Position numbers and translations under genes: made by a program. The notes beneath the pieces are model-generated. The model made no database searches and was not told the origin of the DNA. It saw only the letters and a list, made by a program, of their open reading frames with translations. From IMG/VR virus record IMGVR_UViG_3300043409_000685, positions 1 through 35,142 of that record: a DNA stretch of 35,142 nucleotides; one strand, 5' to 3'. The stretch is from a virus. Of the stretch, positions 1,977 through 35,142 are shown piece after piece (position 1 is the stretch's first letter; the number at the start of each line of letters is the position of its first letter).

Positions 1977-4260
1977 TTACTATCCGCAGTGCATCGGCCA
2001 GCGGCGAGCTTCCCGGCGGCGATTCTACCAGGCGGCGCAGTTCCGATTTCGTCGCGCGCGCCAGCTCGGGCGCGCAGTAAACATGGCGGCGCGTGGAATA
2101 CTCGGCGCTGGTGACGCGCCCGCAATCGAGCCATTGGCACTCGAGCAAGGCGTGGTGCAGGGCGGCGGCGGGAATCCGCTGGCCGGGGGCGAGGCCGGCG
2201 CGGAGCGTGAGGTCAGCGCACAGGACGTGAAAGGGGGCGGTGATGGCGCCAGCCTCGAACGGCCCCTCGCGGCCCCGGATCATCTCGCACAAAATTGATT
2301 CGGCGGGCGACTGGCCATTGGATATCAGGCTGAGCTTGTATTCAGTGATGGGCGGTGCTGCGGCCGGGTTGAACGCGCTCACGTCGCGGCGGTACAACCA
2401 GGCGGCGATTGCCTCGAAGCCGCCAGACTCGAACCAGCGCCACATCCGCTGGCCGCGCTCCGGTGGATCCATCCGGGGCAGGTCAGACCAGACACAGAAC
2501 CAGCGCCGATCCTGAGTATCCAGCACGATCGGCACCCGGTCGTTGCTGGACGCGATGACCAGGCACCGGTTTACGACGTTGTAGGGGTGTTGCATTTTTT
2601 TATTAACGAGGATGGTTTCCGGCGGCGCGGCGATGATCGGTTTTAAATGGTTGGCCAGCGCGCGGCGGTCCTTGGCCTCGCTCTCGCGCAGTTCGTGCAG
2701 GATGATGACCTCCGATTCGTAGGCGTAGCCCCACTGCGAGTTAATGGTGTTGTTGTTCAGTTCGCCCTTGTTGCGCCCCTGACCGCATAGCGCCCACAAG
2801 AACGGCGCCCAGAACGTGTCTTTTCCGGAGCCTTGATACCCGGCGATCAAAACGGCGTGGTTGATTTTGGTGCGCGGTTGCTGGAGCTTGCACGCCATGA
2901 CGTCGTAGATATGCTCGCGGTCAGCGCGCTCGGGGATCAGGGCGGCGCAGTGGTCGAGCCAGAGTGATATGTCGGCCTTCAGTTCGCGGTTCACCGGCGG
3001 GCGGGCGTCGCGCCACATGTTGCCGAACACGTCACCGTCGCGCGTCACCAGCACGTCGTCACCCGCTGAATAGGTGATGCCGACCAGCGCAGGCGCGCCC
3101 ATCGTCTGGCGGTTTTCGTCAAAGCAAATCGACGCCTCGACGCGGCGAGACTTGCCCTTGGCGTCGGTGTGGATGGAATGGCATGGGATGTGCCGGAACA
3201 GGGCATTGAACACCGTGCGCGGGATGTGGTGGCGCTCCTGCATATCGAAAAACGCCTCGTCGGACAGCAGGTAAGCGAACCGGGTGTACCAGCCAGCCTT
3301 TTCGACGCGTCCGATCTCTTTGCGCTCAACGGCGGCGATTAACGCCCCGGCCTCGGTGCTAGCGCTGAACAGGTCACCGGGTTTGAGTTTGGCCAGCGTC
3401 GTGGCCATCACGGCGGCGAGCAGCTCGTCGCGCAAGCCGGTGGTGTGGGCGGGCCCACCCTGCTCGGCCACCCAGGCCAAAAAGCGGGCGCTGTTCCAGT
3501 CCTGACAGTGCGCGTGGAGACAGGTGTAGGCGCGGTTGACGGGCATGTAACGGCCTTCGATCTCGCCGGTGGTGTGCGCCTCGCTGTTGGGGCAGACCAC
3601 GCCCCACCATCCGGCGGCGTTGCCTTGGGCGGTCAGGTGCCCGGCCTCGGACAGCCACGCCAGCACGTCGTCGCTGCCGTCGTCGTCGAGCGCCACCCGG
3701 CGCGCGGTGGCGGTGTCAGCCGGATCAGGTGTCACGCCCAAGGCGGCGCAGACCTGCTCGACGGTGAACTCGCGGTGCGGGTGGAACTCGGTCAGGATGG
3801 CGGCGAAGCGGTCGCGGCCCGGTTTGATGTTGACCGAACCGGGGATGCGCCAATTCCGCACGGCGTTGATCGCGCCGTCGTCGGTGTAGCCAGCAGCGGC
3901 GAAGGCACGCTCGGCAGCGGTAGCCACGGCCACCGGCACCTGCTCACTCAACACCCAGGCCCATTGGTAGTTGCCGGGTGAAGTTTCGATCTTCCATGTC
4001 GGCTCCAGCGGTGGCACCTTGCTCTTGGTGCCCACGTCATCGACGGCGAGGAACGTGACGTGAGTGCAATTGGCGGTGCTGGCTGAGATACCGCCGGTCA
4101 TGCGGTCAAGGATGAAGCTGCCACTGCTGACATACCACGCCTTGCCCTCGGCGCGGGGGGCGTCGGGCAGTTGCGGTATCCACGCTTTCGTTTTTTGCTG
4201 GACAAAAAGAACAGTTTCGCCCTCGGGGGCCAAGCTGGTTACAAATTCGATAAAATCCAT
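1972..4260 (-). CDS. primase-helicase (primase-like N-terminus, DUF5906/VirE-type helicase C-terminus)
   Basis: This 762-residue protein should prime and unwind DNA at the replication fork. Residues 68-76 (VTFLAVDDV) and 136-147 (NWRIPGSVNIKP) resemble motifs of archaeo-eukaryotic-type primases found in phage and plasmid replicases. A zinc-finger-like patch follows: C223, H229, C247 and C252 in CPNSEAH and CLHAHC. The helicase part has a Walker A loop GYQGSGKDT (474-482), a hydrophobic strand ending in HEL at about 524, and a sensor-like IASSND (569-574) with Arg residues near 585. I chose ATG 4260 because AGGAGA lies eight bases upstream; the longer frame to 4308 has no such site. It is the last gene of the replication operon and ends at the terminator. 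Confidence 0.85.
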   Translation of the reverse strand: MDFIEFVTSLAPEGETVLFVQQKTKAWIPQLPDAPRAEGKAWYVSSGSFILDRMTGGISASTANCTHVTFLAVDDVGTKSKVPPLEPTWKIETSPGNYQWAWVLSEQVPVAVATAAERAFAAAGYTDDGAINAVRNWRIPGSVNIKPGRDRFAAILTEFHPHREFTVEQVCAALGVTPDPADTATARRVALDDDGSDDVLAWLSEAGHLTAQGNAAGWWGVVCPNSEAHTTGEIEGRYMPVNRAYTCLHAHCQDWNSARFLAWVAEQGGPAHTTGLRDELLAAVMATTLAKLKPGDLFSASTEAGALIAAVERKEIGRVEKAGWYTRFAYLLSDEAFFDMQERHHIPRTVFNALFRHIPCHSIHTDAKGKSRRVEASICFDENRQTMGAPALVGITYSAGDDVLVTRDGDVFGNMWRDARPPVNRELKADISLWLDHCAALIPERADREHIYDVMACKLQQPRTKINHAVLIAGYQGSGKDTFWAPFLWALCGQGRNKGELNNNTINSQWGYAYESEVIILHELRESEAKDRRALANHLKPIIAAPPETILVNKKMQHPYNVVNRCLVIASSNDRVPIVLDTQDRRWFCVWSDLPRMDPPERGQRMWRWFESGGFEAIAAWLYRRDVSAFNPAAAPPITEYKLSLISNGQSPAESILCEMIRGREGPFEAGAITAPFHVLCADLTLRAGLAPGQRIPAAALHHALLECQWLDCGRVTSAEYSTRRHVYCAPELARATKSELRRLVESPPGSSPLADALRIVK

Positions 4261-4619: not shown

Positions 4620-6559
4620 TTTCCATACCTCGTCATAATCTTGATCTCAACGGCCAACGGCAGACCAGCGGCCCACTCATCCGGAGTACACATCACGCTA
4701 CGCATCCGCGCCACCGTTGCCTCGGCCATGCGCTCGGAACACTCGACAACAATCTCATCGTGGATATGCAGAATCACGTCCTCCAGTTGGCGCAGCGCGC
4801 CGCGCAATATGTCGTTCGCGGTTGCTTGGGTAGCGTTCTCGACGGCCAGCCCGCGCCACAGACGCGCGCGCGGCCACTCGGTCGCATCGGCGGCGGGCTT
4901 CCAGGACGCCTTCAGGTAGGACACCCCGTCGTTGTCGAGCTTGGCGAACGGGTAGCATAGCACCCGACCGGACGGCAGGGAATACCAAAGGTGCTGGCCA
5001 TCATATAAATAACACACCCGGCCAGCATGGCACTCATGCCCCTTGCGGAGCAAGGCGCGAGTGTAGGCGGCTTCCAGGTCTTGGCCGTGCTTCATGGCCC
5101 AGGGGTTGGCGCGGCGCCAGGTCGAAATAGCGCGGGCGATCTCACCTTCGGTCATCTGCACACCGTAGACGCGCCCGAAAGTCTCGAACGAACCGGGGCC
5201 ACCTAAGAAACCAAGCGCCAGCTCCTGCACCTTGCCGACCTGCCGCTGCGCGTCAGTTACTGCCTTATACCGGACGTTGAACGTCGAGGAGGCGTTGACT
5301 TTGTATGGGTCGAGGCCCAACCGGAACACGTCTAACTTGGCTTCGCCGGCGGGGCAGTTGGACAGCCACGGGTTCACACGGCCTTCAATCGCCGCCCAGT
5401 CGGCCACCACGAACACGTTACCCGGCGCCGGGACGAGCGCAGGGCGTAGCATCCCCTTTAGAACGTCCGTCACGCGCTTGCCATATGATGGCACAATTTG
5501 ATGCCCCCGCACCATAGCCTGCCGCACGGCAGCGGGGTCTTTTGCGGTCTTGCGCGTCAGGTTGTGGATCTGCGCGCCATAACTGGCAGCGCGGCCAGTG
5601 GCGCTGCCGCCGGCGAACACGAACGCACCGCGCACGCGGTCATCCTCAATGTCAGCAAGCGCGGCCAGCCGCTTGAACTTGGCAACACTAGACGCCCACA
5701 GGTCATCAGCGCACTGGATGACCTCGGCCACGTCGGGCGGCACCTCGTCGGGGCCGAGCGTGAGCAGGTTGGCGCGCACGGTCTTGTCGATCGAATACTT
5801 GATCTCGCCATCTACATGCCGGGTCATCAGCTTGACGGCCTCGGGGCCGACACGGGCCTGCACCCATTGCCGCATCCGGGGCGAGCGCACACTGGCAAGC
5901 TCACCCTTGGACACCTCGCGCACAATATCTTGTATCTCTTGCAGCTCGGCCTCGGCGTATCCTATCGCAGCGTCGCATAGATCGGTATCGACCATCACGC
6001 CACGGTCATTGATGCGCTCGTTGACGTGGTAGTCGGCCAGTTCTTGATCGGACAACGGGCGCAGGGACTGACTGACGGCGCGCATAGCGCGCACGTCCTG
6101 TTCGCAGTAGGCCACCATCTCGGCCATCAGTGTCGGGTCGTCGTTGAAGGTGCCGTCCTTGCGCGGGACGCACAAGAGGCGAATCAAGGCGGCGCCACGA
6201 TGGTCTTTACGCATCTTGCTGCTGACAGCGCGGCCTACATCCTCCAGACTGCCGGGTAGACAGTTAGCACGGGACTGCGCGGCGGTGCAGGTAAACCGCT
6301 CAAGCGGCGGCTCAACTAAGCCAAGCGTGGGGCATAACACATACCAAAAGACAAGCCGCTCGAAAGCGGCGTTGTGGGCCATGATCTGATGGCCGGCAAT
6401 GGCGGGGAACGGCTGACCCGGCAACCAGGTCAACACCTCGCCGTCATCGAAGGCGTAGGACATGCACAGCACCTCGGTGCTGGCATCCTGCGCGTAGTTA
6501 TAAACGCCGCGACTGGGTAAGTCGCAGCGTGATCGTGTCTCAAAATCGAGCCAGATCAC
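4616..6559 (-). CDS. polA: DNA polymerase, family A, with 3'-5' exonuclease domain
   Basis: This is the replicative DNA polymerase, 647 residues. The N-terminal proofreading exonuclease (DEDDy type) shows all three motifs: LDFET (D5, E7), HNAAFE (62-67) and YCEQD (Y151, D155). The polymerase domain has TGRAASYGAQIHNLTR (321-336), motif A DWAAIEGR (387-394), motif B RQVGKVQELALGFLGG (439-454) and motif C HDE (600-602). No 5' nuclease domain is present, as in other phage enzymes. The start is GTG 6559, with AGGAG eight bases upstream. It lies in the order nuclease, DUF2815-slot protein, polymerase, primase-helicase, a replication module widespread in phages. Confidence 0.95.
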   Translation of the reverse strand: MIWLDFETRSRCDLPSRGVYNYAQDASTEVLCMSYAFDDGEVLTWLPGQPFPAIAGHQIMAHNAAFERLVFWYVLCPTLGLVEPPLERFTCTAAQSRANCLPGSLEDVGRAVSSKMRKDHRGAALIRLLCVPRKDGTFNDDPTLMAEMVAYCEQDVRAMRAVSQSLRPLSDQELADYHVNERINDRGVMVDTDLCDAAIGYAEAELQEIQDIVREVSKGELASVRSPRMRQWVQARVGPEAVKLMTRHVDGEIKYSIDKTVRANLLTLGPDEVPPDVAEVIQCADDLWASSVAKFKRLAALADIEDDRVRGAFVFAGGSATGRAASYGAQIHNLTRKTAKDPAAVRQAMVRGHQIVPSYGKRVTDVLKGMLRPALVPAPGNVFVVADWAAIEGRVNPWLSNCPAGEAKLDVFRLGLDPYKVNASSTFNVRYKAVTDAQRQVGKVQELALGFLGGPGSFETFGRVYGVQMTEGEIARAISTWRRANPWAMKHGQDLEAAYTRALLRKGHECHAGRVCYLYDGQHLWYSLPSGRVLCYPFAKLDNDGVSYLKASWKPAADATEWPRARLWRGLAVENATQATANDILRGALRQLEDVILHIHDEIVVECSERMAEATVARMRSVMCTPDEWAAGLPLAVEIKIMTRYGK

Positions 6560-27822: not shown

Positions 27823-28026
27823 TTACCAACCCGCCAAGTCTGCATACTTCTGACCGTCCTCGCCACAATCAACGAGGAATTCGTCTTTCTGTTCTGCGCT
27901 GTAGTTGCGGCACTTTACGCGCTTGAGTTCTTTAGGGACATCGTTCTCATCCAGCACTTCCTCCAGCCACGTACCTTCTAAGGTGTTTGACTTGATGTCG
28001 TGACACACTGCGGCTAAGTATTTCAA
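27823..28026 (-). CDS. hypothetical protein, 67 aa, TTG start
   Basis: TTG 28026 has AAGGAG seven bases upstream and overlaps the fibre stop (TTGA). The protein has a beta-strand N-terminus (KYLAAVCHDIKSNTLEGTWL) and an acidic C-terminus (FLVDCGEDGQKYADLAGW). No family is recognised. A gap of 38 bases separates it from the 27784 gene. Confidence 0.6.
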   Translation of the reverse strand: MKYLAAVCHDIKSNTLEGTWLEEVLDENDVPKELKRVKCRNYSAEQKDEFLVDCGEDGQKYADLAGW

Positions 28027-30191
28027 GATGTTGCTCCTTTGTGAATGTTGAAGTTAAACTGAATCGCATCGGATAACGATCCAACTGTGTCGTTCCGTAG
28101 TTTTATAATTACAGTGCCAGCACTCCACGCGCTTGCTTGTAATGTGTAATTAACAAAGTTACCCGAAGAAGAATTAAGATTAACTGTGATTGTATCTGCT
28201 GCCGCAAGTATGGAATTGTTTAAGGTAAAAGTCACCGTTGTTAGTCCACCCAACGCTGCGCCATTCATCGTTATTGTTCCACAAGGCTTGTTCAACGTTA
28301 CAGCAGTACTCTTATCCGTTGCCTGTGTAACCGTCCCACCAGCGCCTGTGCCGTAGCCTAGACCTGCGACATTAGTAACAAGCACGTTGCCGCTGGAGTC
28401 GATACGCATACGTTCTGCAAGAGTATCGCTAACTCGTGTTTGAAACACCATTGCGCCACCAGTGCCGTTGGTGGTGGTGTTCACTGCATCAATTTCAGCA
28501 AGCGTCCTTATGCTTGTATCTCTGGCTTGAAACAACAATGAAGCCGCCGTTACTCCAGAGACAGTTGTATCGCCTGTACCGTCGTGGATGCTCAACTGAC
28601 CGGCTGTAGCAGATGCGCCTTTTACCTCAAGTTTGTAAGCCGGGGCAGTCGTCCCAATGCCCACTTGGTCAGACGAATTAACAGTTATCGCCATAAACCC
28701 TTGATTAGGCCCATAGCCACGACCAATCTTTAACTTCGCACTATCGTTGTCATCGATCCCGAAATACCAATTTGCTGAAGCGCTACTGTTTAGCAGCTCG
28801 TAGGAAGGAGAATATCCGGAAGCTCGCACTGTGGGGGCAGAACCGACTGTGCCTGTAGGTTTTGTAATGTACAGACCCACTGATCCCGCACCGGATTGGT
28901 CTATTTGCAACTTTCCATTTGGCGAACTCGTCCCAATCCCCACATTGCCGCTGCTGGTTGCAAAGTTGGAACCGATTGTCGAACTTAACGAAGTAAACGC
29001 ACCCGTAGTCGGAAGCGTAAAGCCTACAGTGCCGTTAATGTTGATGCTGGCAGTGCCGGTGAGGTTGGTTACTGTGCCGGAGGCGGGGATGCCTAGAATT
29101 GCACCGTTACCTAGCGTGGCTACGCCTGTGACTCCAAGAGTGCTAGAAAATGTGCCGGTGGTAAACGCACCCGCCAGCGGAGTCGTAGCGCCCACAGTGC
29201 CGTTAATGTTGATACTGGCAGTGCCGGTGAGGTTGGTTACTGTGCCGCTGGACGGTGTGCCGAGCGCACCGCCGTTGACGACAAACGCACCAGCAGTTCC
29301 GGTATTAACTCCCAACGCGGTAACGACACCTGTCCCTGTGGTCGTAGTGGCTGGAGCTGCTCCAGCACCGCCGCCCAGGACTAACGCGCTGGCAGTAAGC
29401 GCAGCCGATGTTGCCCAGGTAGACGCGCTTGAAAAGTAAGGTACGCCGCCGCTGGTTCCTGCCACGGTCAACGCCAAGGTGCCGGATGCGGTGATCGGTG
29501 AGCCAGCAACCGAAATTAAGCCGCCAGTGAAGGACTGCGCCACGCTGGTAACCGTGCCGCCGCCGGATACTGTGGCCCACGATGTAGCCGTCCCGTTGGT
29601 GGTCAGGAACTTGCCGCTGTTGCCCGTTTGCGACGGAATGAGTGCTGTGATCTGCGCTTGCAATGACGCCAGCGTGTCCAGCACATACTGGGATGTGCCG
29701 CCGCCACTAGAAACAATCTTGATCTGCTCGGCCAGCTCGGGCGCTACCACTTCGCCAACATTCATTTCGACGCCGGTAGAAAGCGAGATTACCAGGCTAC
29801 CGTCGAAGTCGATGCGCGCGTTCGTGACCGACACGCCGTCGGCGCCATCAGCGCCATCTGTGCCGTTGCGTCCGTCTGTGCCCTTAATGCCGGGTGCGCC
29901 ATCGCGTCCAGCCTTGCCATCCTTACCTGGCTTGCCGTCGCGCCCATTGGCGCCATCACGACCATCCTTGATCGTTATGACCCGCTTCTCAATCGCGTTG
30001 CCTACGGAATCAAACCGTTCTCGTATGTCTGACTCGATCTTCTTCAACGCTTCGACAACAAGCTGCACGTTTTCGGCAACCTTTTTGCGCTGCATGTCCT
30101 TAACTTCGGACACCGAATTATTCACTACGCCAAACACATTATCAGCTATGCCATCGATGTTACCGTCGCTGAACATTTTATCGATATCCAT
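28023..30191 (-). CDS. collagen-like tail or head fibre, 722 aa
   Basis: Residues 1-75 form a helical head (VKDMQRKKVAENVQLVVEAL). Residues 77-119 are fifteen uninterrupted Gly-X-Y triplets (GRDGANGRDGKPGKDG and so on), a collagen-like trimer stalk. A long Ser/Thr/Gly beta-region follows with repeated modules (GTVTNLTGTASININGTVG twice, 56 residues apart) and VGIGTSSPNGKLQI-type fibre repeats. The C-terminus is beta-rich. It should be an elongated trimeric fibre. The gene lies between portal and scaffold rather than with the tail genes at 20.7-23.7 kb. The start overlaps the portal stop (TAATG). Confidence 0.85.
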   Translation of the reverse strand: MDIDKMFSDGNIDGIADNVFGVVNNSVSEVKDMQRKKVAENVQLVVEALKKIESDIRERFDSVGNAIEKRVITIKDGRDGANGRDGKPGKDGKAGRDGAPGIKGTDGRNGTDGADGADGVSVTNARIDFDGSLVISLSTGVEMNVGEVVAPELAEQIKIVSSGGGTSQYVLDTLASLQAQITALIPSQTGNSGKFLTTNGTATSWATVSGGGTVTSVAQSFTGGLISVAGSPITASGTLALTVAGTSGGVPYFSSASTWATSAALTASALVLGGGAGAAPATTTTGTGVVTALGVNTGTAGAFVVNGGALGTPSSGTVTNLTGTASININGTVGATTPLAGAFTTGTFSSTLGVTGVATLGNGAILGIPASGTVTNLTGTASININGTVGFTLPTTGAFTSLSSTIGSNFATSSGNVGIGTSSPNGKLQIDQSGAGSVGLYITKPTGTVGSAPTVRASGYSPSYELLNSSASANWYFGIDDNDSAKLKIGRGYGPNQGFMAITVNSSDQVGIGTTAPAYKLEVKGASATAGQLSIHDGTGDTTVSGVTAASLLFQARDTSIRTLAEIDAVNTTTNGTGGAMVFQTRVSDTLAERMRIDSSGNVLVTNVAGLGYGTGAGGTVTQATDKSTAVTLNKPCGTITMNGAALGGLTTVTFTLNNSILAAADTITVNLNSSSGNFVNYTLQASAWSAGTVIIKLRNDTVGSLSDAIQFNFNIHKGATS
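29026..29079 (-). repeat. 54-bp repeat inside fibre gene (second copy 29194-29247)
   Basis: The two 54-bp copies differ at a single base and are 168 bp apart, so the repeat keeps the reading frame. They encode the GTVTNLTGTASININGTVG module. Near identity at DNA level suggests recent duplication or gene conversion, a way to change fibre length. Confidence 0.85.
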
Positions 30192-32263: not shown

Positions 32264-33520
32264 TCAGACTCCCGACACTACGTCGATAGGCACCCAGGTG
32301 TCTTCCTGCTCCTCAAAATACGACGTTATCGCCAACTGATCTATATAGGAAAGCGCGTCTGGCAGGTCGTCGTGGACGCCCTGCGCTGGGAACATCAATA
32401 ACTGATCCACGAATTCATCAAAATCCTCATCACTATTGAGGATAACCCGACCATGCTCGAAACGGCCTTGCAACGACCAGATGATCCGGTCTGCCTTTTT
32501 TCGGTTGCCATGCGTCAGGTCAATAATGTGAGAATATACATTACTTTTACGCATTAGGTCACTTAAATATGGCAAAACGGCGTTTTTTAACGCTCCGCGC
32601 TCAATTCCCACTGCTACCGGGCGATAATCGCGTATTGCCATCAGGATATTGGACGCGGTTTCCTTGATGTCCCAACGGCCATGATCGATCTTTTTCACCC
32701 ACCACTTGCCGTCATCGGTAACTTTGACCACGGCGATCGCGGTTTCGTCCAGCCGCTTGCGCGCATTTGCTGCTTGCTTGGAAACTTCTTCAAATCCGGC
32801 TAGATCGCACGCTATATAGTAGCTTCCGACTTCAGGCTCTTCGCCATACTTAAGCCATACCTCTTTGAAGATATCGCTACCGGCGGTATCGAAGCTCGCC
32901 ATGTATTCCTGTTTGAAACTGAAGCTCGATAGCGTCTTCTTCGCGCTCTCGATCTCGTCCGGGTCGATCATCGGGTTGTCTTTGGTCGTGAAATGCCAAG
33001 ACTTCCAGTCGGAATCCGTTTCGTTCTTTCCAAGGTTGAACAGATCGTAAAACCAATTGCGCCCTCGTGGGGTGCCGATAAAGATTGCGCGCCCTTTCTT
33101 GTCGCTCAAGCTGGCTCTGATGACCTGCTCCCACGCCTCGGACTTGATATCTGCCACCTCATCCAGGACCGCATAGGTCAGGCTGACCCCGCGCAGCGTG
33201 TCCGGTCGGTCGGCGCCGCGCACGTAGATGCGCGCGCCGTTGATGAGTGTGATATCCAGATTGTTGACGTGGCTAGATTGAATCACCTCCCTTCCCAGAT
33301 CCAGCAGCAGATCCCAGATGATCTGCCGGGACTGCCCCATCGTCGGGCTGACATACAGCACTGCTGATCCTTGCGGGCAGCGCAACGCCTCGATCAATAA
33401 CGTCGTTGCCGCCAGTCTTGACTTGCCGCAGCGCCGACCGGCTGCGATCACCTTAAATCGTGTGGTGTCCTTGAAGACTTCCTGCTGCCAAGGCAACAGG
33501 CTGAAGTTTAAGTCGGCCAT
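32264..33520 (-). CDS. terL: terminase large subunit, 418 aa
   Basis: This motor cuts and packages DNA. The ATPase has Walker A AAGRRCGKSR (26-35), Walker B YAVLDE (D120, E121) and the coupling motif IFIGTPRGRNWFYDLF (147-161). The RNase H-like nuclease shows D239 in YYIACDLAG, E307 in VGIERGA and the last acidic pair in DDLPDALSY (about 384-392). The start overlaps the small-subunit stop (TAATG). The length is at the short end for the family but all motifs are present. Confidence 0.93.
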   Translation of the reverse strand: MADLNFSLLPWQQEVFKDTTRFKVIAAGRRCGKSRLAATTLLIEALRCPQGSAVLYVSPTMGQSRQIIWDLLLDLGREVIQSSHVNNLDITLINGARIYVRGADRPDTLRGVSLTYAVLDEVADIKSEAWEQVIRASLSDKKGRAIFIGTPRGRNWFYDLFNLGKNETDSDWKSWHFTTKDNPMIDPDEIESAKKTLSSFSFKQEYMASFDTAGSDIFKEVWLKYGEEPEVGSYYIACDLAGFEEVSKQAANARKRLDETAIAVVKVTDDGKWWVKKIDHGRWDIKETASNILMAIRDYRPVAVGIERGALKNAVLPYLSDLMRKSNVYSHIIDLTHGNRKKADRIIWSLQGRFEHGRVILNSDEDFDEFVDQLLMFPAQGVHDDLPDALSYIDQLAITSYFEEQEDTWVPIDVVSGV

Positions 33521-33834
33521 TAGGCCACGTCCTCTATGTCCTTTTGCCCCGGCGTCGCTTCAATAGTCGCGCCAATACCAGTGATGTTTATCGTCACCGC
33601 GCCACGGTGTCCTTTGTCTTTCTCAAACAAACTGACCGGCAGCGTGCGCTCCATACATAACTTCAGTGCGGCCATCTGGCTAGGATGATCGTCGTTCATC
33701 GCAATATCCACCACTTTCTGCACCACGCGCTGGCCGCTGCTGTCGAGCAGCATCTGCTTTAACTCGTTCAAACGCTGGTAGTCCGTCTTCGGCAGCACCT
33801 TCGGCGCGCGATACCGTTTGGTCAGCTTGTCCAT
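33520..33834 (-). CDS. terS: terminase small subunit, 104 aa
   Basis: The product has a basic N-terminus (MDKLTKRYRAPKVLPKTDYQ), a helical middle (RLNELKQMLLDSSGQRVVQK) with NDDHPSQMAALKLCMERTLP, and a C-terminal beta-hairpin that would contact the large subunit. It is just upstream of, and coupled to, terL. It should recognise the packaging site, which may lie in the repeat-rich stretch just upstream (33835-34281). GGAAA precedes ATG 33834. Confidence 0.8.
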   Translation of the reverse strand: MDKLTKRYRAPKVLPKTDYQRLNELKQMLLDSSGQRVVQKVVDIAMNDDHPSQMAALKLCMERTLPVSLFEKDKGHRGAVTINITGIGATIEATPGQKDIEDVA

Positions 33835-33840
33835 ATTTCC

Positions 33841-33885
33841 AACTATAACTTATTACTAGTTAAACCGCTACTGTAAGTAGCTTAC
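33841..33885. promoter_or_regulatory. AT-rich leader with overlapping inverted repeats upstream of terS
   Basis: Directly upstream of terS are CTACTGTAAGTAG (33868-33880) and GTAAGTAGCTTAC (33873-33885), two perfect inverted repeats that share eight bases and so cannot both fold at once. CTTATTACT at 33849-33857 recurs at 34622-34630. This looks like an operator or a switchable RNA, but no clear -10/-35 pair is seen. Confidence 0.4.
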
Positions 33886-33910
33886 TTGCGCCGTTTTGCT
33901 CTTTTTTTGT

Positions 33911-33961
33911 GGGTGGGGGGGTCCGCAAATTTCTCGTGCCGACCGATACCCCCTCCCCCCC
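33911..33961. other. G-tract and C-tract pair
   Basis: GGGTGGGGGGG (33911-33921) and CCCCCTCCCCCCC (33949-33961) can pair as a hairpin with a 29-base loop, and each strand carries one run that could take part in a G-quadruplex. A T-run (33902-33908) precedes it on the plus strand. For leftward transcripts an A-run follows, so it is not a terminator. Confidence 0.6.
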
Positions 33962-33964
33962 ATG

Positions 33965-33989
33965 TTGCACTGCAGCATATTGCACTGCA
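33965..33989. repeat. two direct copies of TTGCACTGCA
   Basis: TTGCACTGCA occurs at 33965-33974 and 33980-33989, a 15-bp period. It lies between the C-tract and the 8-bp array, upstream of terS. Spaced direct repeats of this size near terS would suit a terminase recognition site. Confidence 0.6.
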
Positions 33990-34008
33990 CCATGCGGATT
34001 TTTGCCCG

Positions 34009-34233
34009 GGAGCCAGCGGGCCAGCGGATCCGCCAGCCAGCCAGCCAGCGGATCCGCCAGCCAGCCGACGAGCCGACGAGCCAGCCAGCCAGCCGACGAG
34101 CCAGGCGAGCCGGGCGAGCCAGGCGAGCCGACCAGCCGACGAGCCGACGAGCCGACGAGCCGACGAGCCGACGAGCCGACGAGCCGACGAGCCGACGAGC
34201 CGACGAGCCGACGAGCCGACGAGCCGACGAGCC
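34009..34233. repeat. low-complexity region with 8-bp tandem array
   Basis: From 34009 the sequence is built of CCAG and GGATCCG-containing units, then of the 8-mer AGCCGACG. From 34134 to 34233 the 8-mer repeats perfectly for 100 bases (12.5 units); earlier copies at 34063-34133 are imperfect. Because 8 is not a multiple of 3, all three plus frames encode the same 8-residue repeat (RRADEPTS) and none contains a stop; the minus strand is also open. I see no ribosome binding site before it, so I treat it as noncoding. Together with 33835-34008 it fills the 447-base gap between terS and the 34282 gene. Confidence 0.9.
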
Positions 34234-34281
34234 AGATTATGTTAAATCACGTGGGCGTAAAGATATTGCGTGCGCAGCCTA

Positions 34282-34497
34282 TCAGTCTGATTTTTTCACT
34301 AACGCGATATTTTCCGGTCGCATACCTGGGCGGTACCCTAGCGCGTGCAAATGCTGGTAGATCGCTAGAATCTCATGCCAACCTTGCGAGAGATCGCCAG
34401 ACCCAGCTGCTAACAATACCGCGCGCGCCAGGGGGGTAAGTGGCCGCCGGAACGCGACGGTATCAATTTTGCATGGGCGGCCTTTCATGCGCGCCAT
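34282..34497 (-). CDS. hypothetical first gene of late unit, 71 aa
   Basis: The protein is basic at the start (MARMKGRPCKIDTVAFRRPL) and helical after (LARAVLLAAGSGDLSQGWHE, ILAIYQHLHALGYRPGMRP). The ATG has no Shine-Dalgarno site; TATAGA sits at the distance of a -10 box if the ATG itself were the transcript start, so a leaderless message is possible. No family is recognised. It is separated from terS by the repeat region. Confidence 0.55.
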   Translation of the reverse strand: MARMKGRPCKIDTVAFRRPLTPLARAVLLAAGSGDLSQGWHEILAIYQHLHALGYRPGMRPENIALVKKSD

Positions 34498-34611
34498 TGT
34501 ACTCTATAGGCACTATTAGCTACTTTTGACCCCGGTAAAAGTCGCGCCCACAGAAATCCGGGTACCTACTACTAATATCTAATAAATGTACCAAACAGTT
34601 TTGTGATCTAC

Positions 34612-34639
34612 TGAAATATAGCTTATTACTGATATTTCA
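34612..34639. promoter_or_regulatory. inverted repeat in divergent early/late control region
   Basis: TGAAATAT (34612-34619) and ATATTTCA (34632-34639) are perfect inverted arms with a 12-base spacer, inside the 281-base gap between the leftward late unit and the rightward early unit. A second pair GGTAC / GTACC lies nearby (34561-34565 and 34588-34592). A protein binding here could switch between the units. Confidence 0.5.
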
Positions 34640-34696
34640 ATGCGTTGGCGCTGTCGCGCGGCAAATAAAACTGCAAAGTTTGCACGTTAAAATTAT

Positions 34697-34725
34697 TTGT
34701 GACGAAAAAGCTTGCAAAATAGAAT
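34697..34725 (+). promoter_or_regulatory. sigma70-like early promoter
   Basis: TTGTGA (34697-34702), a 17-base spacer and TAGAAT (34720-34725) match the -35 and -10 consensus at four and five of six positions. Transcription would begin near 34732 and give a leader of about 47 bases before ATG 34779. It is the best host-type promoter in the window and would drive the early unit through the contig join. Confidence 0.65.
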
Positions 34726-34778
34726 CAGGCATGGTGAAATGCTCTTGCTGTCCCGAAAATCAACTACAGGAAACTACC

Positions 34779-34991
34779 ATGAACAAATCCGAAACACGCG
34801 AATTGAATAAACTGATTGCCCTTGCAAATGCAATAGCTGGCACCGATTCGCGCCATTGTGTGGCATATCTGGCACGCGGCTATAGCGCGCTAATCCGTGC
34901 TACGCGCACAACGAACTCGCGCGATCACATGCTCGATTGCGCTCAACGCAATCCCGCCGTAATCGCGCACCCGGATTTTATAATCTCGTAG
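34779..34991 (+). CDS. first early gene, hypothetical conserved-type protein, 70 aa
   Basis: ATG 34779 follows AGGAA by seven bases. An in-frame ATG at 34731 would be at the predicted transcript start, so it is unlikely. The product (NKSETRELNKLIALANAIAG, VAYLARGYSALIRATRTTNS, then VIAHPDFIIS) is helical and basic and resembles small early proteins found in many phages and plasmids, all of unknown function. Its last seven codons lie in the 126-bp repeat, so it directly precedes the gene start at 74 / 35045. Confidence 0.7.
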   Translation: MNKSETRELNKLIALANAIAGTDSRHCVAYLARGYSALIRATRTTNSRDHMLDCAQRNPAVIAHPDFIIS

Positions 34992-35097
34992 CATCCATGC
35001 GCGCCAATTGGCGCGCATGAAAATCAACTAAATTGGAGTAAAACATGAACAAAAAACAGGCGCACGAGATTCACGGCGGATTGACCCAAACGACAAA
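34972..35097. repeat. 126-bp direct repeat, right copy
   Basis: This copy is identical to 1-126. Here it is preceded by the rest of the 34779 gene and followed by 45 bases not found elsewhere in the window. Joining this copy to the left one closes the genome at 34,971 bases. Confidence 0.9.
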
Positions 35098-35142
35098 AAT
35101 GCCGTGCAAATCCTACTCTTTACCTACAATCGCGTGCGTTAC
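35045..35142 (+). CDS. 5' end of intact conserved phage gene (runs off the window)
   Basis: ATG 35045 follows GGAGTAAAAC. The 32 visible codons begin NKKQAHEIHGGLTQTT and continue KMPCKSYSLPTIACVT. From memory, a family of phage proteins starts with GGL(S/T)xxxKMPxxSYxLPAxxCxxG and goes on with a CxxCYA motif; its function is not known to me. The fit is good over the short part visible. The same first 17 codons at 74 lead into something else, so this is the likely ancestral form of that locus. Confidence 0.6.
   Translation, partial: MNKKQAHEIHGGLTQTTKMPCKSYSLPTIACV

Follow-up and report, generated by a model that had tools for sequence, protein, structure and literature searches.

The viral record analyzed here (IMGVR_UViG_3300043409_000685) is a single stretch of 35142 b, which is referred to as the window. 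The large terminase gene (terL) occupies 32264–33520 on the minus strand. The same strand carries a 104-aa gene in the terS position (33520–33834), which is conserved in 190 viral-contig relatives, and a 71-aa gene (34282–34497), which is conserved within the clade. The product of the terS-position gene gave no match in Pfam and PHROG at an E-value of 0.001. A tandem array sits between these two small genes in a noncoding gap of 447 bp (33835–34281), with the 71-aa gene lying upstream of it. This gap was previously regarded as the only large one of the genome, which does not hold, as the far side of the 71-aa gene is flanked by a second noncoding gap of 282 bp with 39% GC (34498–34779). This second, AT-rich gap separates the 71-aa gene from a plus-strand ORF with its ATG at 34780, and may serve as a divergent control region. 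The window is collinear with two relatives of 35117 and 35218 b, which are opened at other points, in one case within the gene at 28023–30191; the ends of the window are therefore probably arbitrary, and these 35-kb genomes look like complete ones that are permuted or circularly assembled. Among cultured phages, no close relative was found; the terS-position protein had no match, and terL shared about 24–29% identity in the matches listed. A search of bacterial genomes gave no relative. Furthermore, an Rfam scan of 33400–35142 gave no match, a sigma-70 promoter scan performed no better than shuffles, and structure predictions for the 71-aa protein and the terS-position protein were of insufficient quality for use.

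Over exactly 100 bases (34134–34233), the array repeats perfectly with a period of 8, corresponding to 12.5 copies of AGCCGACG, which reads CGTCGGCT on the terS strand. With imperfect copies included, TRF extended the array to 34063–34233 (20.5 copies). A degenerate flank composed of 4/8/20/24-bp units occupies 34011–34133, for which TRF periodicities of 24, 20, 12, and 4 bp were obtained at 34011–34145, and a short 15-bp duplication (33960–33993) is located between this flank and a G-tract described below. The longest period-8 run generated by chance was 19 bases in 100 whole-window shuffles and 22 in 2000 local shuffles, in comparison with the 100 observed, which confirms the existence of the 8-bp array; no array of comparable size was detected in the rest of the window. 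The preliminary description emphasized that the array is open in every frame with the same peptide. The plus frames at 34009–34233 are indeed free of stops and encode the repeat SRRADEPT, but this openness carries no information, because a random 8-mer is stop-free in all frames of a strand with a probability of 0.71 at the genome composition and 0.98 at the composition of the array. A coding repeat was also considered and rejected, as the units, and hence the peptides, vary among relatives, and the unit of the relative L002 introduces stops on the terS strand. The window as a whole has three Chi sites (GCTGGTGG) on each strand, and Chi differs from the array unit. The exact four-unit array was not found in other viral contigs; in bacterial genomes, it was found in 20 scattered stretches, mostly of Actinobacteria.

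On its terS side, the array adjoins a G-rich element of ~68 bp (33894–33961, minus strand), located just upstream of terS and occurring once in the window. This G-element consists of G7-A-G5-T, a core, a C-rich arm, and an A-tract, and all relatives with contigs extending to this point possess it in a fixed geometry. In the relatives, a first G-tract (G6-10) is separated by A, or rarely by T, from a second one (G3-5), which precedes T, a stretch of variable sequence, a core rich in AT, the C-rich arm, and the A-tract. The interrupting base and the A-tract lie 45–46 nt apart in 51 of 72 cases, the remainder being mostly those in which the pattern caught an earlier A-run. The exact pattern identified 113 viral contigs, with a span of 61 b in every match listed, so that the G-element constitutes an undescribed and widely conserved cis element beside the terminase genes of uncultured phages. 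A second half-site, positioned ~37–47 b further towards terS (about +91 to +101), is clear in L076, L232, L245, and L252, and two or more half-sites were detected by a loose pattern at 19 of 75 loci. The hairpin potential of the G-element is modest, with a mean z of −1.67 on the terS strand and −0.75 on the other strand. Single-copy occurrence, conservation, and a position beside terS are what is looked for in a cos/pac site, and all three were found for the G-element, which most likely represents a packaging-initiation (cos/pac-like) signal. Against this reading, full-length contigs open at different points, and the contig ends close to the G-element are not confined to one base. The expectation that a packaging or control site lies in this gap is supported, with the modification that the likely site is the adjoining G-element and not the array.

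The cos region of phage lambda (cosQ-cosN-cosB) offers a parallel, in that a compact cis signal with a GC-rich stretch is placed directly upstream of the small terminase gene. Furthermore, lambda cosB holds three TerS sites (R-sites), to which the second half-site found towards terS at some G-element loci may be likened (PMC4669245). In contrast, the sequence of the G-element is unrelated to that of lambda cos, and the likeness rests on position, copy number, and half-sites. To our knowledge, no hypervariable array lies beside lambda cosN. If the G-element is the packaging start, it would provide a sequence tag for the genome ends of phages that are available only from metagenomes.

The array was then compared among IMG/VR relatives, comprising 578 obtained by a terL search and more added from terS and 71-aa searches. 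The array unit is not conserved among these phages sharing the terminase: the same spot is occupied by TGGCCTGA in L002 and L202, TGGCCGTG in L012, CTCGAGCTCGTCCGG in L013, ATCGCCC in L014, and a mixture of TGGC and TGGCCCGC in L003/L004. The close relatives L008, L009, and L010 have no array at this spot. In the terL tree, the array-less L008 groups with the array-bearing L002/L213 (96/98 with L002), and the array-less L009 groups with the array-bearing L004 (100/100), indicating that the array was lost, gained, or replaced more than once in the clade. The preliminary description proposed a comparison of repeat number between related phages and named absence from close relatives that package normally as evidence against its view; units and lengths do vary, and L008 and L009, lying within an array-bearing clade, come close to that case. 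The units of TGGC[CT]CGC type, which within the degenerate flank adjoin the G-element most closely, occur in the window as well as in L002, L202, and L003/L004, and probably represent the ancestral type. In three full genomes examined, no comparable array was present elsewhere.

These comparisons bear on the proposal that the small terminase, or a regulator, binds the 8-bp units to stage packaging. Such a binding array would adjoin terS and the probable packaging site, as the present one does, and short-repeat arrays are also known near the ends of T7. However, the unit is wholly changed between phages whose terS-position proteins are 82–89% identical, the array is missing in close relatives such as L008 and L009, and its length is free to vary, which together make the proposal improbable.

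The turnover of the array is most evident between near-identical contigs. G020 (L202/L213) and G001 (L002) are identical at 3526 of 3526 bases from the G-element onward and are separated by about three differences in a total of 21.2 kb (summed from several comparisons), whereas their arrays are 659 and 467 b long with a different unit order; the flank beyond the array exhibits 95.8% identity over 311 b. Similarly, G008 and G009 are identical at 6496 of 6500 bases downstream and have different array units, and L259 and L264 are identical over 680 b downstream and only about 53% alike upstream. Two readings follow, namely an extremely fast change of the array or repeated exchange at its boundary with the G-element. 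The recent expansion suggested from the purity of the array is in line with these data. A role as a spacer tuning late transcription is disfavored, as the length differs by ~190 b between two phages near-identical over 21 kb. The units are arranged head-to-tail in tandem, and the copy number varies between near-identical genomes, the latter being observed in short-read contigs of relatives and not in the window's own population. The array in itself is therefore of an ordinary kind, a minisatellite, and it is the place that is unusual. As in other minisatellites and VNTRs, near-identical genomes differ in how many copies they carry and in the order of the variants; what sets this case apart is the recurrence of arrays with unrelated units at a single fixed position in a phage group.

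Short-read assembly may have put long arrays together wrongly, and chimeric joins through a repeat could mimic such recombination, a concern raised by the G020 flank beyond its array with its identity to G001 of only ~96%. Contig ends numbered 38 in 350 b around the G-element (−150 to +200) and 15 in 850 b further upstream, making them ~6-fold denser near the element, the pattern expected of a site at which a single downstream sequence is joined to many different upstream ones. These ends are spread over many bases and do not concentrate on a single base. They were also considered as physical ends of the genome, for which their scattered positions are not decisive. An assembly artefact with a false copy number or chimeric joins might be suspected from the use of metagenome contigs, from arrays of 467–659 b that probably exceed the read length, and from array contigs that often end nearby. 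Nevertheless, L003 and L004 carry the same array in different metagenome records, the perfect run of the window is only 100 b, and arrays occupy the same place in many records. Given arrays at the same spot in independent metagenomes, we consider it very improbable that the array is an artefact, while the copy number in short-read contigs is uncertain.

Repeats are distributed unevenly about the G-element. An excess of direct 9-mer repeats (z > 3 versus shuffles) was detected at 75% of 63 loci for the 300 b of the terS-distal flank and at 7% on the terS side, a contrast that is suggestive but not a pure intergenic control, as the terS-side segment is partly coding. Other kinds of sites were also located in the terS-distal segment. 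Strict DnaA boxes number six in L034, within 250 b (−251 to −16, counted from the G-element), and two or three each in L023, L035, L180, and L196, lineages in which this segment may act as an origin of replication. With at most 3 mismatches to the Fur-box consensus AATGANAATNATTNTCATT, Fur-box-like sites were detected in the 450 b upstream of the G-element at 20 of 75 loci; the corresponding 450 b downstream contained none. Palindromes of AGGGTNNACCCT were present within 300 b upstream at 48 of the 75 loci, often several at a time. These sites, together with the repeat excess throughout the group, are consistent with an origin or late-control region that extends from the 71-aa gene to the G-element, in which binding sites are swapped between lineages and the 8-bp array is the iteron- or operator-like version of this clade. 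Direct repeats in a noncoding segment, accompanied by DnaA boxes in other lineages, indeed recall iteron-type origins. On the other hand, the unit in the clade of the window is non-palindromic and GC-rich, and, in a manner different from iterons, varies among close relatives and is absent in L008–L010; moreover, no strict DnaA box and no Fur-box core were found in the window. We regard an origin or control region as a serious alternative, although less probable than the explanation preferred below.

Neutral expansion, one of the options raised earlier, agrees with the high purity of the array, its GC-rich low-complexity units, their rapid turnover, and the occurrence of similar microsatellites in unrelated bacteria. 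In its pure form, namely slippage in a tolerant spacer without any link to the G-element, this explanation is unlikely, as repeats with unrelated units recur at one spot and, across many lineages, always to one side of the element, and no comparable array exists elsewhere in the full genomes examined. The explanation that we prefer, and hold about as probable as not, treats the array as a hypervariable minisatellite that has no sequence-specific function in itself, lies beside a functional G-element that is likely the packaging start, and is proposed to undergo break-driven turnover. The packaging role of the G-element, the lack of function of the array, and the break-driven turnover are conclusions that we infer. 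Terminase cutting, fork stalling at the G-tract, or both would generate breaks; on their unpackaged (terS-distal) side, repair would proceed through slippage and through unequal recombination involving short direct repeats. Through such repair, repeat units could arise, expand, and be swapped on the terS-distal flank, and the repeats would be a fast-evolving by-product on the unpackaged side of the G-element. Slippage alone does not explain the DnaA-box clusters or the operator-like palindromes of other lineages. We regard as doubtful the further proposal that the packaging-start element itself drives arrays to be formed and replaced continually, on one side only, in the DNA that remains after the packaging cut, and thereby sets up a built-in boundary between the late genes and other parts of the genome that is hypervariable and prone to recombination.

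Phages T7 and T3 possess short-repeat arrays beside their terminal redundancy, which in T7 are located at both ends. Short tandem units are thus placed where the packaging machinery acts, as it putatively does here; the present repeats appear to be one-sided, unlike those of T7, and undergo complete unit turnover. A literature search, which reached few subscription papers, gave no account of such arrays beside phage terminase genes. These findings shift attention from the repeat to the G-element and make the locus a natural record of the birth and turnover of repeats. If the repeats are break-driven, packaging would be linked to local mutation and recombination.

Two minor observations were also made. 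The G-tract at 33949–33961 contains GGGGAGGG, which matches the FtsK KOPS consensus GGGNAGGG; the tract also resembles the G-run of mitochondrial CSB II. Repeated palindromes of GTTAGTGAGCACTCACTAAC and TAGACTGACCAGTCTA were observed at 1–90 of L020 and at about 920–1247 of L021, and these are reminiscent of TetR-family operators.
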